From Buxus sempervirens (lineage: Eukaryota > Streptophyta > Magnoliopsida > Buxales > Buxaceae): a stretch of 64,000 bases of DNA. Where the stretch lies: contig OX387194.1 of the NCBI GenBank assembly GCA_947561395.2, positions 13,936,048-14,000,047 of the forward strand, written 5' to 3'. Positions 14,920 through 51,840 of the stretch are shown here, one piece after another (within the stretch, counting starts at the first letter, position 1; each line of letters begins with the position of its first letter). Position numbers and translations under genes: made by a program. The notes under the pieces were generated by a model. That model ran no database searches. It worked only from the letters and a program-made list of their open reading frames with translations, and was not told where the DNA came from.

Positions 14920-15766
14920 CTTTATAGAATCGTGGGCTTTCCACAGTCACAGCACTCGTAGACTTTCCTTTTACATGCAGTCGTCGAAGACAATAGGACA
15001 AGAAACCCTGGAACAATGAACTACGTGCAACTATAAGCGAAATACCAGTTGTTGAAAATCCATCGGTAACATTGGAAATCAGAGAGAAGATAAGGCAAAC
15101 ATGTGAAAAGGGGAAGCCAACAATGAAGAACCTACAAGTGAATGACACATTAAAGTCTCTGAACGGACTGAAATTAACTAAAGAAGATTTTGATGCTATT
15201 ATCATTCCGGTGTTGAATGCAAAAGAGAAAATCAAAATACATGATAGAGTAGAAGCAGATGTTTACGACGAAGAATTGAGGGAGTATCATATGATTCTAA
15301 AATACAAGAGCCGGAGTTAACCATCACAGACTTTCCTTTTATGTAGAGGTGTCAAGAGCGAAGGAAAAGACTCGGAAATGAAGAAGATGGGTGCAACAAA
15401 TCAGTGACACAACGCATGGAAAAGAATCAGAAAAAGAAACAATTCACCTATAGATCGATTTATTGTGCTTTCTTCTCTCTCTCTCTCTCTTTCCCCCTTT
15501 TTGTCTCTTGTTTTACGTTAGATTCGTTCCACAGTATTTGAACACAGAAGATTTGAGCATATTAAACAGAAACAATAGAAAATTGTTTGAAACATTGTGA
15601 CATTGTTGAAACTATAAACAACAGATGAACTCTATAGAGATGGCTAGTTTATGGATTCAACACTGATTAATTTGATTGCATTATCACAATAATAGTGGAA
15701 ATCAAATATTTTAATGCAAATAACAAAAACAACACCGAAAAGAATCAACTATTTGCCAAAAATTTA
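14920..15766 (+). pseudogene. B3-domain gene copy 3, scrambled fragments
   Basis: Two pieces lie in the wrong order. First is a C-terminal piece at about 14929-15020 that reads SWAFHSHSTRRLSFYMQSSK, matching WPFRG...RLSFYIEVSK of copy 6. Then comes an N-terminal and central piece at 15024-15320 that reads VVENPSVTLEIREKIRQTC and continues through LKSLNGLKLTKEDFDAIIIP to DVYDEELREYHMILK before a stop. The 3' UTR follows (CATGGAAAAGAATCAG, then a CT tract). The B3 core with the TGGW motif is absent. It lies inside the candidate TIR element. Confidence 0.72.
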
Positions 15767-33228: not shown

Positions 33229-33979
33229 CTAGCAATGTGGCCCGTGCGATGCACGGGCAAATAGTTTTAATAATTATTTTGACTCAGCTGTCTTCTTTTA
33301 AATGCCAAGTCTACCCTATACCTTAGAATAAAAGGGATAAAGTTGTCAGTATCCTCAAACTCCTGGAAGGGGCAAATTGTTAAATACAACAAAAGATCTA
33401 GGTGGAAAATGAGAGCAGTAGGCATAACAAAATAGGTTTTGCCTGATTAAAAAAGCAATGTGAAGATAGAGTAAGATTTGACTGAAATGCAAAAACAAAA
33501 ATTCACTTCTATTTAAAATATGTATCCATTGCAATGTTATAGCTTAATGAAGGTTAAGATGTAACTAAATCTAAATTAGTTCAATTTCAGCTTGAACTTT
33601 ATGCCTAAAAAATAGTCTCATTGCGGTCTCCAAGAAGGATTCTTCATTCTGAGTAGGACCAGATTGATGTCAGAAGATTAACCATAAGCTGCAATGATGC
33701 CATATGAAATAGATGAGAATGCTACTACAAATTCCAAATATAGAAAACAAACAATGCTTAGCACATAATATATGATTCCAAAGAAAATGAATGTTGTGTA
33801 ATAGTAGAGTAGCACAAACGAAAGTGACATTTAAATTACAATATGTTGCTAAGATAAATGTAATGAACTTTGGTTGGATATATGCAATACAGCAGAAGCA
33901 AATAATGGATGCAATGGAACCTCCATACAGTTGCCGAAAAAAGCAATGGGACCTCCATTTCTTGGTTCTCAGTTACAAT

Positions 33980-34291
33980 CTAAACCAATAATGAAAACCC
34001 ATGATGACTAGATTGTTCTTGATGATTGAAACGGCCGCCAAAGGAATTGGAAATTAAATAGGCTAATTTGTAGCGTATAATGGGAATGTCAAAATCTGCA
34101 AGAACACCCAAGATCTTAACCATGATTGTCAAGCCGTGTCTGGTGAACTCTATTGAATTCTTCATCGCCGTCTTCACATCATCCATCAGCGTTGAACACC
34201 TCCAATAGCCCTTCTCTTCTAAATACGCCTCCTGATCCATGATTGGTGCAGTCTTTATGTCGTTTATCCTTGACAAAGATTCCAAATTCAT
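33980..34291 (-). CDS. Unrecognised 103-codon frame inside the Helitron
   Basis: Reads MNLESLSRINDIKTAPIMDQ, then EAYLEEKGYWRCSTLMDDVK, then a hydrophobic-helix-like part (LTIMVKILGVLADFDIPI) and ends SHHGFSLLV. Codon and residue use look like real protein rather than random AT-rich frame. A TTGTAG acceptor-like site precedes it by 14 bases, so it may be a captured last exon. I do not recognise the family. It lies in Helitron orientation with no sign of its own promoter. Confidence 0.4.
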   Translation of the reverse strand: MNLESLSRINDIKTAPIMDQEAYLEEKGYWRCSTLMDDVKTAMKNSIEFTRHGLTIMVKILGVLADFDIPIIRYKLAYLISNSFGGRFNHQEQSSHHGFSLLV

Positions 34292-36442
34292 CCCCTCCCT
34301 ACCTACAAGGAGGTCAGTAAGGCATTGAGATGATCAATATGTGGCTTCCTCGAAATGGCTCTCGCTCAATGCTGCCCTGACACTAAGGTTGTTGGTTCTA
34401 GCTGTCTATTATGGAGGAGGCAAAGTGTCATCAAGGTGGAACTCGAACTAAAAGGCGTACTATAAAATAGAAAAGTCTGAAAAAAGAAAAAACAAAGAAA
34501 GAAAAAAACCTTAGACATAATAGCAAACGACAGGAAGTGGAACCTGAACTATGTGGTTCTGTAGGAATGGGTGATCAAAAGTAGGATGCTGAAAGAGATG
34601 GACAGTTGATTATATCTCCATCTGGACCCTGTTTCAACATCAAAAATCAGTGAAGATGGCATGAATTCTTATGCTCATTGCCTAATACCATTGACAAACC
34701 CATCAAACAAAGACATGAAATATCAACGAACCCCATAAACACAAATTTTCACGATAAATAGATGGAATCACCCAAACTACAGGCAAAATAATTTTTTAAA
34801 AAAAATTCATGAATACTTAAAGAGGAAATAGTCAACAAAATTTTGGGAAAAGAAAAGAAAGTCACCTTAATGCTTTTCAAGGCAGGTTTTTTTAAACACT
34901 TCAAGTGCTTCTGAACCTTGAAGTTCTGCAGTGAAATGCTCATCCTAATGGCATAAGATAGCAGCACAAAAGCCAGAAAGCAGAGAAACACTATTGTCAA
35001 GTAAATATTTTGGTTGTGCATTTCCACAAAGCCTAGCACACCATATAAGATTCCTAATTCCTATAACAACCGTTTACAAAATAAAAATTAATATAACTCA
35101 GCAATTTATATCTAATGGGGAAGGCATAAAGCAAATGAAGATATACAACAGCCATTGGCTGAATAAAATATCAGAGCAATACCCATTAGTTCTTTTGTTA
35201 GATTAAAAAAACTATTTTTACTAATAAAAATTAATCAAACTCAACAATTTATAGTTGGGGAAAGCATAGAACCAACAAAAATACATAGCAATCACTAAGT
35301 AAATAAAATATTAGAGCAATATCCATCAGTTCTTCTGTTAGATTAAAAAAATGTTGTATTAGGTAAAGAAAGCTAGCAGAATCGGTAATCATATTTGTTA
35401 TCAACATAGTAAGTAGAAAGGCACAACTAAAAGGGTCGGATTGGAGACACAAACTTTGCCCTCAAAATGTGATATAGCCTTAATGACATTATGTTGATCA
35501 CTTTCAAGTGAATGTTTCATCATTGTTTAAGAGGGAAATTCTGGATGAGCTGATTATAATTATTCTAGCAACCAAAGTGAATAGTATAAACAATGTTGTA
35601 ACTTCTACAACTAATACGACTCCAACGTGGAGATAGGACTCTTAACATGGAGTGGAGAAGAACCTATTGTCTTTCGGGTATTTTCTTCTTTAGCTGATGC
35701 TTCAGAGGAACGACTACCCCTGTTTTCGTTGGGGTTTCATTGATGAACTCCTCCGGTCAAGGTTTCTCACTCTTCCAAGTGATTCCGCTGCTTGCTGATC
35801 GATCTGAGGCAGTGCTTAAACAATTCAATTGTGAATTCAGATGAAAAAGCCAATCAATAACAAATATTTTCACCCAAAATACACCAACGTCAGAAAAAAA
35901 AAAAAAAAAGGGGATCGAATTCCCTAAACTGCAAGCAAATAAAAACCTAACCGTAAAATTAAGTAGAGCTGAAATTGTAAAAAATAAAAGATAAATAAAG
36001 CGCATCAAAATGTAAAAACGAACATAAAAGAGGAAGTATTCTAAGAATGGAGAAGATGCAGTCAAAAATTCCACTTAAGTATTGCGAAGCACATGAGTTT
36101 AAGACCAAAGATCTAAAAAAAATCACACTGTATTAAACAATCTACATGAAAGTATTTCTTTTTCCCATTGCATACTAAAAAGATGGCAGATAAAAGGAAA
36201 CCCATGATTTTCCCCCTAATTTTTTGCTCATGAGTACCAAGATGATCGACATAAACTCATAAAATTCATTAAACAGATGGAATTTCATTTACAGCTCTAT
36301 TGTTTGATAATTTGGAGAAAACTTCTCACAGAAGGAAAATGAACCGTTGATGATCATCAGTATAAGCCATAACCTCTCCTATTCTAAAGACAATACATAA
36401 GAAAAACAACCACAAACACTTGGTATTCAAACGGAGTATCAC

Positions 36443-36850
36443 CTCAGGGATCTTCGGTCCCGATGGTTAAGCAACTAAACATATCTTCCAAAGTCTTGAA
36501 CGGCTGCTCATAGCTACGGTAGGTCTCCAAGTCTACCTTCCGGAGGTACGGCGCTCCGTCGACAGCGACCTTCACATACGTACAGCTGCTGATCAACGCA
36601 TTCCTCCTGAACGATCTCATTGGTGGCCATCCAACCACTTGAGTTCTGAAAGCCGGAACACAAAATTCAAAACCCAACATTAACAAATATAATTAACCTT
36701 TTCTTCAAGAATTGAACAGTTCTTGTAATCTTACTTTGCAGTGGACTGTTTCCCGGCTATCGATTGAGACTCCACTGTGAGTCGTCACTCTTAATCGACT
36801 GAGAGTCTTGAGACTGAAAGAGGGAATAGGGATTCAGGGAAGGAGAGAGA
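36443..36850 (-). pseudogene. Aux/IAA auxin-response repressor fragment (domains II-III)
   Basis: Aux/IAA proteins repress auxin response factors in the nucleus and are degraded through the GWPP degron on auxin binding. Exon 36645-36444 (minus) encodes [16 protein letters not shown], the domain II degron, then [20 protein letters not shown] and ...[11 protein letters not shown], domain III. The preceding exon ends at 36735 (...IAGKQSTAK, donor GTAAGA) and joins in phase through an AG acceptor. Domain I (LxLxL) and the second half of the PB1 region (domain IV, GDVPW) are not found, and the frame ends in EDP-stop. It is a partial gene inside the Helitron. The region 36850-37320 may be its CT-rich leader (a short MEEEEAASPR frame near 37058). 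Confidence 0.82.
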
Positions 36851-37525
36851 GAGAGAGAAATAGAGGAGGGGTGGGGGACTGGGAGACGGGAAGGCGCAGC
36901 GGCGCCGTTTGGACGGCTCAGAACAGGCAGATTCCGCCGGGCACGGTTGCGGAACCCTTAAAAAAAACATAAAACGGAAGAAGAAGAGAGCGAGATAGAG
37001 AGAAAGGGGGATGGAGGGGGTAGGCAAGGGATACCTGGGTGATGCCGCCTCCTCCTCCTCCATCACCGGGAAGATAGGTAGAGCCGTAGAAGAGAGGGAA
37101 AGTGCAAGAGAGAGGGAGAGAGAAAGACCGCACGGCGCCTTCGAGGGAGTAAGAAAGAGGAATAGTCTCGAAGGGCTGCGGGAGAGAAGAAGATTGATCG
37201 AAGCTTGTTGATCGGGGTCAGGAGCCTTCTTCACAGAACGAAGCCCCAATTTTTTTTTTCTTCTCGCCAGAAGTTTGGAGCTTTCTCGAACCCTCTCGAC
37301 GGTAGCTCTTTCGGGAAACAACAGAGCATCTGTAGAGAAGGGAGAGACAGGGAGGGTTCAGAGCTTTCTGGAACTCTCGACTGGAACTGTTTCGGGAACG
37401 ACGGAGTTTTTTTTTTATTTTTTTGTGAGGCTCGGGCACGCCAAAGCACGCGAGGCTGTCCTGAGCCTCCGAAGCAACGGGGGGGTGACACGTCAAGCGC
37501 CACCCCCTTTCGCTTAATATATAGA

Positions 37526-40649: not shown

Positions 40650-42038
40650 ATGTCCAACAATAAGGGTAAAAAGAAAGCTAGAGATGGACAAGGCAGCACA
40701 AAGCAGGCCCCGCAGCCCCAACAAAATGTATACTCCTAACCTCAGTCTCTTTCAATTTAGCTTCCCTTAACTCTTTCTATAAGATATTTATTGATTGTAT
40801 TCTTGTTGAGGCAAATAAGTTTAAACATATCTGATTTAAAATATCCATTCCATGAGCACTTCATAAGTGCCCATGTTACTGAAAAACTTGCCATTTGAAT
40901 TGTTTGAGTTGTTCAAAATTGACACATTGGGGTTTTATCCATATTTTGGAAAGTGCGTGAGAGAACAACTTTCTCATGGTGAATTGTTGTTAAGACTTTT
41001 AAGGATAGTTCATTGAACAATTGGCCAATTATTCCCTAAGAATCCATAACGATAGTTCATTGAACAATTGGCCAAGTGTTCCCTAAGAATCCATAAATCA
41101 TTACAAACACCGACTTGGGAAATCTCTAAGGCTGTTGTAACTGAGCAATTCAACTGGCAAAGTAAATTGGTGAGACTGAAAATCCAAATCATTGCACCAA
41201 AAACATGGATTGGAATGAGTGGAATTCACTTATTCTCACAAAGAATACTATCAAATAGTTCAGTAACTTCACGTTTTTAATGATTCAGCAGACTGAAGGG
41301 GAAGGTTTGGAGTTAACTGAAGAAGACAATGAAATGACTGCAACAGCTTTGAAGAGTGTTAGACAACAAATTGCAACTATGGATGAAACGTTAAAAAAAG
41401 TTCTCCCAGTGTATAAGAAATTCGTTGAAACCACTACAACTTCCTCAAGCAAAACGATAAGCAAAGCACCAGTTGAGGAAAATTCATCACAAACATTGGG
41501 AATTAGAGAGAAAATAAGGCAAACGTGTAAGCCAATAGTGAAGGAACTGCAAAGGTCTGACACTATTGCATATCTGAAAGGACTGGAATTACCTAAAGAA
41601 GGTTTTGATGCTGTTGTACTTCCTATGTTGAATAAAGAAGAGAGCATCAAAATACAAAATGGAGTAGAGCTAGATGTTTATGACCAAAAAATGAGGACGT
41701 ATTCTATGATACTTCAATACTGTCCTGAAAGCAAGACTCATTTTCTTACTGGAGGATGGCTGAAATTCAGTCGTAATTTTGGGTTGAAACCCTTTGAAGA
41801 CACCGTCACATTGTGGCCTTTCCGCGGTCTTCAAACTCTTAGACTTTCCTTTTACATAGAGGTGTCAAAGACAACAAAACCAGAAACTCTGAAAACTGAA
41901 GCACCTGCAAGTCCTGAAGGACCATCAGAAGTGAATAAGGCACTCAAAGGCACCAAGAAGATGGATAAGGAGGAAGAGACAACAAAGCGGTCGGACACAA
42001 CGCGTGGAAAAGAATCAGAAGAAACAATTCATCCATAG
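40650..42038 (+). CDS. B3 domain-containing protein (DUF313 type), copy 6, intact
   Basis: Predicted nuclear, plant-specific protein with one B3 DNA-binding-type domain. Proposed exons are 40650-40727 (MSNNKGKKKARDGQ...) and 41292-42038, joined in phase 0 by a 564-bp GT-AG intron ending GATTCAGCAG, giving 274 residues. The alternative single-exon start at 41280 (MIQQ) gives 252. The B3 domain spans about residues 93-196 of the 252-residue form: LKGLELPKEGFDAVVLP, DVYDQ, the core FLTGGWLKFS and the LWPFR...LSFYIEV end, as in At1g05920-like proteins. The C-terminal tail is charged (KKMDKEEETTKR). It is the only copy of seven with the whole domain open. Expression and DNA targets are unknown, and many relatives are poorly studied. 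Confidence 0.8.
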
Positions 42039-46144: not shown

Positions 46145-49100
46145 AGCAATGATAAAGAAAGATCTTAATAACCAGAAGAACATAGACTATGGATAGATGC
46201 CTACAGGTATCTGAGACCAACCTAAAAAAGGCCTTGGGCAAGTGGATGAAGGGCTACAAACTGGTGTATGAGGTTGATGATTACTGCAAAAAAATTGTGT
46301 AGTAAAGAGAGAAAAAAAAATACTGTGGAAACCATAAAGCTAATTAGGATAAGTTTTCTATTTTTTTCAAGAGAGGGAGTGAAACCAAACCTGCCCGTGC
46401 AGGTAATAATTTAGAACTCTGTAAAATGTTTAGGGAGGCAATAGCACCCAACCCCCGGCATGGTTCAACCCTAGTTTCACCCAAATTTTTTTTAATTAGC
46501 GAAATGGTCTTTACTTGAGAGACTACGAAGCATCGGGAAGCCCCGGTGCATATCATAAGATCGCCAACGCAAACATTACAAGTCTGCCGCCAATGCCACT
46601 TTCAGAAAACTTTCAGCTATACTTTCAGAAATCAAGGAGCTCTGTCGATACAATTTGTTTTCTATCTTTCAAGATATCCTAGAAAACCTCAGGTAACCTC
46701 TCTCTCTCTCTCCCTCCCCATTTGTGTGTTTTCCAGTTTCAGCGTGAATTTCTATTTCTTTAGCTGATTCAAGGTAGTAGAGTTGAAAATTTTGTCTTTG
46801 TTTTCGTTTGATTCTTGTGATTGGTTTCCATTCTAGTTGCTGTTTCTTCAAAGAAATCTCACAAAAATATTGGTTTCCTTTCTGGTTTTATGTGAATAAA
46901 GCAGCTTCTTGATTACTGCGAGTTCTTGTTAGTGCTATGCTTTCTGGTTGCCTTTCTTGGAAGAACTCATACAAATTTTCTTCTAATCTATGTTACACAA
47001 ACTATTTCCGTGAGCATAGTATATTTTTCATATTTTTTTCCCATCGAATTTCTCATTGCTTTCTTGTTCTGTTTCTTAGACTTCCACAAGTGTTTCATTC
47101 TTGTCTCTTGGAAGAACTATAAAAATTTATTTGCATTTCGTGATAAATGGGTTTCTAAAAATGCACGTATTGGAGATTATTTGATATTAAACTTGAACAT
47201 TCTTTGGCTCTCCCTCCCTGTCTCTGTCTTTCTCTCTGTTCCTCATTCCTAAGAACAATCTTGAATAAATCTGTGGCTGCTATTTGTTTTTTATATAGGC
47301 AATTGCATCATTAGGGATCCCTAATAGCAATTTGGAAGAAGTCTCTTGAACACAGCAAGAACCTATTGAAGAAGTGAAGAAGAAGAAGAGTGTTGAATAA
47401 GGCAAGAACTGGTTTTGGGTCTTGTCAATAAATATAGACAGCAACAATCAGGCTGACAAGAATGCTAGTGATGGAGCAAGCAGCTCAAATCAGGCCCAGC
47501 AGCCCCTACAACCAGTATACTCCTAAACTCAGTCTCTTTCAATTTAGCTACCATTAACTATTTCTATAAGATATTCATTGATAGAATTCTTGTTAAGGTG
47601 AATAACCATTAACATCTCTGATTTAGAACTTACCATTTGCACTGTTTGAGTTGTTCAAAAATTGATTGATTGCGGTTTTATCCATATTTTGGAAGGTGTG
47701 TGAGAAGGCAACTTTCTAATTTTATTGGTAAATTGTTTTTAAGACTTTTACGAATAGTTCATTGAACAATTAGCCAAGTTTTCCCTAAGAATCCATAGAT
47801 CATTACAAAAACTGACTTGGGAAATCTTTAGGGCTGTTGTTAATGTGCAATTCAACTACGAAAGTAAACTGGTGAGACTGAAAATCCTAACAATTGCACC
47901 CGAAACATGGATAGAAACGAGTAAAATTCACTTATTCTCACAAAGAATACTATCAAATAATTCAGTAACTTCACATTTTTAATGATTCAGCAGACTGAAG
48001 GGGAAGAAGATACGGGGTTAATTGAAGAAGACATTGAAGTGGCTTCAATGGCTTTGAAGATTCTTAAACATATTACAACTTTGGCTGAAATGGCACGAAA
48101 ATTTATCTCAGCGTTAATGAGATGCAGTAAAATGACTACAGTTTCCTCAAGTGACAAGATAAGCACAGTATCAGTTGTAGAAAATTCATCACTCACATTG
48201 GAAATTATAGAGCAGATAAAGCAGACATATAAGCCACTAGTGAAGAAACTGAAAGGGCATGCCTATGACACAACCACGTATCTGAAAGGACTGGAATTTT
48301 CTACAGAAGATTTTGATGCTCTTGTTGTTCCTGTGTTGAATGAAGAAGAGAAGGACAAAATATATGAAGGAGTAGATGCAGATGTTTACGACAAACAACA
48401 GAGGAAGTATCCTGTGATACTGCGTGGATATAGATTGGAACCCTGTGAGGACACCGTCAAATTGTGGGCTTTCCGCAATGATAGCACTTCTAGACTTTCC
48501 TTTTACGTGGAGGTGTCAAAGACAACAGAAACAGAAACTGCAACTGCTAGTTCTGAAGGTCCATCAGACGTCCAACATTAGAGAAGCAGATATAGCTACC
48601 CTGTGAGAGGGAAGAAAAAGAAGAAGAAGGTGAACCTCAAACTCAAGTGAAAAGGAAGAAATGAAGAAGGCACTCAAAGGCACCAATTAGATGGATACAT
48701 TGGATGAGACAACAAATCAGTTACACACAATGCATGGAAAAGAATCATAAGAAGAAACAGTTCATCTATAGATCGACTTATTGTACTTTCTTCTCTCTCT
48801 GTCTTTCCCCCTTTTTTTAGTTTTTGTCTCTTGTTTTAGGTTAGATTTGTTCCAGAGTGTTTGAACACAGAAATTTGTTTGAAGCGTTGTGAGATTGTTA
48901 AACAGAAACAGGAGAAAATTGTTTGAAGTGATTAATTTGATTGCATAATGAGAATAATAGTAGAAATCAACTATGCTAGAGCATTTAAAAGAAAACAACT
49001 AAAACCACTGAAAAGAATCAACAATTTGCAGAAAATTTAGCTCAGAATCGAGAGAGATACAGATTGTCCAAAAATTAGCGAATTCAGCACAAGTAAAAGC

Positions 49101-51542: not shown

Positions 51543-51840
51543 CTAGCAGGTAGCCCATGCGTTGCACGGGCAAATAAGTTTCAGAATTGTTTAAAAATAC
51601 ATTATTTTATATATTGTCTTAAAGATTAATATATCAACAACATCTAACACAATTAGGTCAATCGTCCCACTTCAATGCCAACCTGATATGGTTAGTGTCA
51701 TGGGGTTTAATATAGTTCAGACTCTTATAGGAATCTTATAGGGTGTGTTAGGATTTGTGGAAACGAGGCCTATTGCCCACACTTGTTTCAAACCTAATTA
51801 CCTTAATCTACCTATTAGCGTTTATATATATATATATAGA
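51543..51840 (-). mobile_element. Very small Helitron candidate
   Basis: The 3' end (minus) is hairpin GCCCGTGC-AAC-GCATGGGC (51571-51553) plus CTAG at 51546-51543, followed by T, closely like the end at 33229. A possible 5' end TCTATATATATATATA at 51840, preceded by A, would give 298 bp, but TA-rich sequence makes this end uncertain. No coding content. Confidence 0.5.

Follow-up and report, generated by a model that had tools for sequence, protein, structure and literature searches.

How did a piece of an Aux/IAA repressor gene come to lie inside a mobile element of Buxus sempervirens, and does it serve any purpose there? The question is raised by a stretch of 64,000 nucleotides (C21:13936048-14000047 in a genome of 676.5 Mb; hereafter the window), in which a sequence-only reading had proposed a Helitron that has captured Aux/IAA exons. 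This proposal was borne out, as other copies share the same ends, the Aux/IAA homology stops inside them and a donor-like gene was found. The locus at 33229-37525 on the minus strand is very probably explained as a non-autonomous Helitron of 4297 bp that arose by stepwise internal capture, exchanged its 3' half and carries the Aux/IAA piece as a passenger. Judged from its sequence, the element is a chimera in which the Aux/IAA piece is accompanied by leader, SR/RRM and pectin methylesterase (PME) pieces and probably by a neprosin piece.

Both termini could be seen directly where they had been noted before. On the minus strand, the 5' end is an A followed by TCTATATATTAAGCG at 37525 and the 3' end is GCCCGTGCATCGCACGGGCCACATTGCTAG followed by T at 33229. 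The 5' end characteristic of Helitrons, starting with TC (TCTATATATTAAG), was present in all five copies considered (L001, which is the window copy, to L005), and in each of them the element is preceded by A and followed by T without target-site duplication. The 3' end is of the CTRR type with a hairpin (CCCGTGC-ATC-GCACGGG, then CTAG), which was lost in L003 only. When up to three mismatches were allowed, the 31-nt 3' end occurred 75 times and the 24-nt 5' end 190 times in the genome, compared to 0 for the reversed-pattern control of either. The first 195 bp (q1-195, with the element coordinate q = 37526 - window position) were matched with approx. 81-82% identity at other places of the genome. 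The stated lack of a Rep/helicase (RepHel) gene was confirmed for the window, as none of the 142 genome matches of Helitron_like_N (PF14214; best 150 of 173 candidates scored, some loci counted repeatedly) was located there. RepHel is expected of autonomous elements only, and the element belongs to the recognised non-autonomous subclass of Helitrons.

Recurring copies with the same ends were found at unrelated sites. At least four full copies exist (best 40 of 343 candidates scored), at least three of them besides the window copy; the whole element was observed in L001, L002, L003 and L004 and the full 3' end in L001, L002 and L004. The flanks of these four loci are unrelated, with only two small shared repeats detected by blastn hundreds of bases away from the ends. 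Kimura two-parameter (K2P) distances were 0.003-0.014 among the four copies and 0.03 to L005. L003 could reveal whether copies without the hairpin still move.

An empty AT site, which the sequence-only reading had suggested as a check, was approached for L004 at the protein level because a nearby repeat crowded the search with DNA (best 40 of 177 candidates scored). The joined flanks of L004 give one frame of a Na+/H+ exchanger (PF00999, E 4.4e-8) with one stop typed as X; the match spans residues 2-97 and the junction lies at residue 66. The genome was searched with the first 77 residues of this frame, and 13 of 20 exchanger paralogues other than the copy itself run past the junction to residue 74 or beyond with 28-49% identity. 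This suggests, as modest evidence, that L004 was inserted into a once continuous exchanger frame.

The captured Aux/IAA segment is the sole PF02309 match in the window (AUX_IAA, 86.7 bits, E 2.7e-24, profile positions 69-153 of 222), and no Aux/IAA homology was detected in the window outside the element. Its degron exon lies in the orientation of the element, the degron QVVGWPP is kept in all five copies and both splice sites of the captured intron 1 are intact, consistent with the working-looking splice junction described earlier. What had been named domain III amounts to no more than the beginning of the PB1 domain; 43 residues are covered, corresponding to residues 6-48 of the 113-residue IAA17 construct (PDB 2muk), and a complete PB1 with domains III and IV is not present. 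The missing domains I and IV were looked for in the window by tblastn with donor exons 1 and 3, which gave no significant match (best E 4.2 and 1.0). As the intron was retained, a retro-copy of an Aux/IAA gene was ruled out.

The donor search that had been proposed among the Aux/IAA genes was carried out on 59 genome-wide PF02309 matches, five of which are the Helitron copies themselves, with 12 Aux/IAA places compared besides the donor. The closest match was L023 (C21:6636045-6636340) with 89.5% identity over 296 gapless base pairs and 395 bits. This locus reads as a complete Aux/IAA gene with domain I (ETELTLGLPG), degron, domain III and domain IV. The 12 other exons fetched reached at most 43.7 bits (83% over 41 bp) and were ruled out as donors.

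The leader, SR/RRM, PME and tentative neprosin pieces had been absent from the sequence-only reading. The leader piece is 90% identical to C10:43482619-43482848 and has further homologues at 70-77%; its order is rearranged, with the q636-681 part lying upstream of the q400-605 part in the donor. An ATG is present in the closest relative (L028) and absent in the relatives L071 and L072, which is why the exon is probably a 5' leader. The SR piece shares 422 of 469 alignment columns (90%) with C8:2151583-2152050, the flanks of which encode RS repeats and an RRM. The piece at q2533-2992 is probably derived from a neprosin gene, as suggested by C10:33051082-33051628 (84% DNA identity over q2533-2808 and 70% over q2817-2992); the Neprosin_AP match was weak (E 7.5e-4, 20.4 bits) and below the Pfam cut-off of 39.2. 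The PME piece matched C21:200954-201285 (76% on DNA; tblastn E 3.4e-22), the frame of which is recognised as PMEI and Pectinesterase. No usable Pfam match was obtained for the element's own PME piece, the long leader frame or the neprosin-like frame of L026. As far as they could be identified, all five gene pieces are oriented in sense with respect to the element.

Table 1. Parts of the Helitron in window coordinates, followed by its other copies in genome coordinates.
Feature	Position	Strand	Remarks
Whole non-autonomous Helitron (L001)	33229..37525	-	4 loci; common 5' end and CTAG end; inserted between A and T; unrelated flanks
Helitron 5' end (q1-195), common to other Helitrons of the genome	37331..37525	-	A, then TCTATATATTAAGCG
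Leader piece (q400-605, q636-681): exon and intron of a small gene family, probably 5' untranslated region	36845..37126	-	
30-bp remnant common to older elements L032/L033, left of the Aux/IAA piece (q737-766)	36760..36789	-	29/30, E 3.8e-8
Aux/IAA genomic piece (q769-1064, 296 bp)	36462..36757	-	265/296 identical to C21:6636045-6636340; PF02309
Aux/IAA exon-1 tail	36735-36757	-	
Aux/IAA intron 1	36646-36734	-	
Aux/IAA exon 2 without approx. its last base, with degron QVVGWPPM	36462-36645	-	
TGA closing the Aux/IAA frame just past the SR junction	36444..36446	-	CGA in L005 and in the SR donor
SR-rich RRM protein gene piece (q1062-1522): exon end, 5' splice site, intron	36004..36464	-	
Body common to other elements	33967..36022	-	L032, L033 (88%); part of L037 (87-89%, from q2344 on); L005 (94%)
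Tentative neprosin (activation peptide) gene piece (q2533-2992)	34534..34993	-	
Pectin methylesterase (PMEI-PME) gene piece (q3124-3446)	34080..34402	-	
3' half common to Helitrons L035, L038	33229..33983	-	replaces the 3' end still in L005
3' terminal hairpin CCCGTGCATCGCACGGG, 8 nt before CTAG	33241..33257	-	
L002	C22:19082853-19087162		99% identity; full 3' end
L003	C9:37116545-37120823		99% identity, q1-4258; hairpin deleted, GGCCACATTGCTAG followed by T kept
L004	C3:60634504-60638824		97% identity; full 3' end
L005	C3:55902860-55906434		94% identity; 5' end and q1-3559, then a different Helitron 3' end

The order in which the modules were assembled can be read from related elements. L032 and L033, which presumably are older Helitrons, possess the stretches q737-766 and q1504-3559 with approx. 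180 bp between them and no Aux/IAA. Exactly this gap is occupied in the window element by the Aux/IAA and SR pieces, which therefore most likely were inserted into an element that already contained the PME and neprosin pieces. Measured against the closest relatives, K2P distances were 0.19 for the PME, 0.14 for the neprosin, 0.11 for the Aux/IAA and 0.08 for both the SR and the leader piece. From q3543 on, the 3' half is 94-98% identical to L035/L038, Helitrons with other interiors, in two blocks that are separated by approx. 230 bp in L035. L005 ends differently with GCCCGTGCAACGCACGGGCTGCACGCTAG followed by T, a 3' end of the L032/L037 kind.

The following course of events would account for this arrangement. 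An older element already carried the PME piece and probably the neprosin piece. During its repair or replication, synthesis may have switched template to the Aux/IAA gene on C21, then to the SR/RRM gene on C8 and back, leaving approx. 740 bp of host genomic DNA with its intron where relatives have approx. 180 bp. One descendant would afterwards have taken over the 3' half of other Helitrons in place of its own and colonised at least four places, with RepHel proteins from other loci of the genome providing its mobility. The Aux/IAA piece would have travelled as a passenger without detectable constraint and may be methylated.

A candidate for the autonomous partner was found on C3 (L065/L066, approx. 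C3:55668026-55683103), where Helitron ends lie 15.1 kb apart around a RepHel match at C3:55675084 with an open frame of 1485 aa. The sequence was read at the end regions. The 5' end at approx. C3:55683103 is 90% identical over 110 bp to that of the window element, and the 3' end at approx. 55668026 (GCCCGTGCATCGCACGGGCTTCTTGCTAG followed by T) contains a 3' hairpin and CTAG followed by T. Presumably, these ends bound one 15.1-kb element.

Several points weigh against this account. The clean empty site was not found for the window copy (flank search, best 40 of 1306 candidates scored) because the closest paralogue of its flanks, L041 (C1:28807297-28807908), holds another, 3'-truncated Helitron at the same position between A and T. 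Among the exchanger paralogues compared with L004, 7 of 20 end before residue 74, one at residue 69 and six before the junction. Mobility is read from copies and ends and not from observed transposition. In L032 and L033 the 3' ends are degenerate and a 5' Helitron end could not be recognised, and the last bases before T in the C3 partner are partly unlike those of the window element. A lost sister gene could be the immediate source of the Aux/IAA piece, and the direct comparison covered just 12 further exons. Microhomology of 2-4 bp at four of four junctions, which is short and was determined by eye in diverged sequence without a control, fits template switching without proving it; because of this shortness and divergence, end joining or nested insertion with deletion is a possible alternative for the capture step.

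The L041 site itself reflects either two insertions at one position or an older shared insertion that was later replaced. A second Helitron-type 3' end, GCCCGTGCAACGCATGGGCTACCTGCTAG followed by T, was observed on the minus strand of the window at 51544 with its hairpin at 51554-51570. L052 (C15:26938948-26939178) shows a head-to-tail arrangement such as tandem or rolling-circle read-through might leave, with the 3' end of a Helitron joined to a 5' end that lacks its first TC (CTAG directly followed by TATATATTAAGCG). On the plus strand of the window, the frames at 41259-42038, 47961-48581 and 14997-15320 share common wording, e.g. EADVYD/ELDVYDQ and ILKY/ILQY, and presumably represent plant genes of the B3 or a similar type that form a local family.

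Concerning a possible function, the donor was compared with four of the copies; L002 was left out, as a 1-bp gap in the intron and the loss of register prevented its use, and shared changes were counted by eye in the other four. Per-site rates were alike with 0.07 for replacement and 0.075 for silent changes, since 10 replacement and 3 silent shared changes fall on 143 and 40 sites, respectively. One of the ten, a V-to-I replacement in the junction codon, may stem from the SR piece, so that a fair count is 9-10. These like rates ruled out a constrained coding exon. The changes L to P, L to F and A to T were assigned to the element lineage by comparison with paralogues and affect positions that are presumably part of the first PB1 helix. 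The TGA that ends the Aux/IAA frame in L001-L004 is a C-to-T change at a CpG. The Aux/IAA piece is most likely a neutral passenger and the auxin link is probably incidental. No indication of a gained function was seen, and neither functional role suggested by the sequence-only reading was supported by the observations. Changes of the C-to-T/G-to-A type accounted for 6 of 10 single-copy changes in L001 and 14 of 20 in L004, but for 3 of 6 in L002 and 0 of 5 in L003, a pattern that fits methylation in two copies at most.

It is unlikely that the copies serve as a source of small RNAs silencing the donor Aux/IAA gene as well as the SR and PME donors in trans. Such a role could draw on several nearly identical copies and on stretches identical to the donors, up to 40 bp long for Aux/IAA and 48 bp for SR, which are enough for RNAs of 21-24 nt, and the share of C-to-T/G-to-A changes in L001 and L004 is as expected for methylated DNA. 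Captured gene pieces as small-RNA sources are treated, with a maize precedent, in a review (PMC13317346). However, the overall divergence from the donor is approx. 10%, L002 and L003 do not follow the pattern, and such changes would indicate methylation at most and no action in trans.

Far less probable is a role as a peptide. A transcribed element would have to be spliced from the leader exon to Aux/IAA exon 2, yielding a degron peptide of 76 aa (MEEEEAASPR-[T/A]QVVGWPP...) as a competitor of Aux/IAA proteins for TIR1/AFB receptors or ARFs. The intact splice sites and the VVGWPP motif in five of five copies, the frame of the leader exon (phase 2) that joins exon 2 in frame and the ATG in L028 are in its favour, and the fused frame stays open over 76 aa in L001-L004 and over a longer stretch in L005. 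Nevertheless, approx. one in three such joins would be in frame by chance, and the absence of the ATG in L071 and L072 points to a 5' leader. The small auxin-sensitive interactor of degron and PB1 suggested by the sequence-only reading is disfavoured by the substitution pattern with its like replacement and silent rates, by a proline entering the presumed first PB1 helix, by the coverage of only 43 of 113 residues of the IAA17 PB1 construct and by the absence of the domain I and IV exons. That Helitron movement has spread such a peptide, itself degraded in an auxin-dependent manner, to several loci where it competes for TIR1/AFB receptors is to be regarded as highly improbable as well. A native, degenerate Aux/IAA gene or pseudogene into which Helitron ends chanced to fall was rejected, as its genomic, unprocessed exon-intron structure is outweighed by the recurrence of the piece with the same ends at four unrelated loci and by the lack of Aux/IAA homology in the window outside the element ends.

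The non-autonomous Helitron with its passenger can be compared with known systems. Maize Helitrons capture several gene pieces stepwise, including insertion inside an ancestral element, and their multiple termini are explained by nesting (Dong et al. 2011, PMC3288121). The window element resembles them in its ends that are conserved across elements with different interiors, in host-gene pieces from different chromosomes within one element and in sequential capture with insertion within an ancestral element and multiple termini. It differs in that Aux/IAA is among the donors and that the exchange of the 3' half is documented by L005, a relative that has the other end. In Helraiser, capture proceeds by read-through of the 3' end (PMC4778049). 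The TC...CTAG ends, the 3' hairpin, the AT target and the diversified 3' ends are shared with this Helraiser/Helibat family of bats; the hairpin has been lost in one copy here (L003). Unlike in Helraiser, the Aux/IAA-SR block lies in the interior, flanked on both sides by stretches of an older element, and 3' read-through would not by itself explain it.

A maize Ds element with a fragment of an IAA-hydrolase gene (PMC3260210) is likewise a transposon that contains an auxin-related, intron-containing gene fragment copied from another chromosome; it is a hAT element and not a Helitron, and the fragment encodes a hydrolase and not an Aux/IAA repressor. With Aux/IAA repressors (IAA17 PB1, PDB 2muk), the captured piece shares the degron and the first 43 PB1 residues, but it lacks domain I and the rest of PB1 and its transcript is only putative. 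No publication on a Helitron with an Aux/IAA piece was found among the papers listed in a literature search, which is a weak negative, since the slash in Aux/IAA is unmatchable and most subscription journals lay outside the search. PMC3503983 was rejected as a link between Helitrons and auxin, as 'IAA' is the label of a table column there.

The capture process is known, and the element is another, well-documented and well-dissected example of it. It provides an unusually complete record of the assembly of one Helitron, as a single genome makes it possible to name the closest donors, the order of nesting, a relative that has the other 3' end and a candidate for the autonomous partner. With such a complete record, 3' read-through and internal template switching can therefore be tested against each other by means of sister species.

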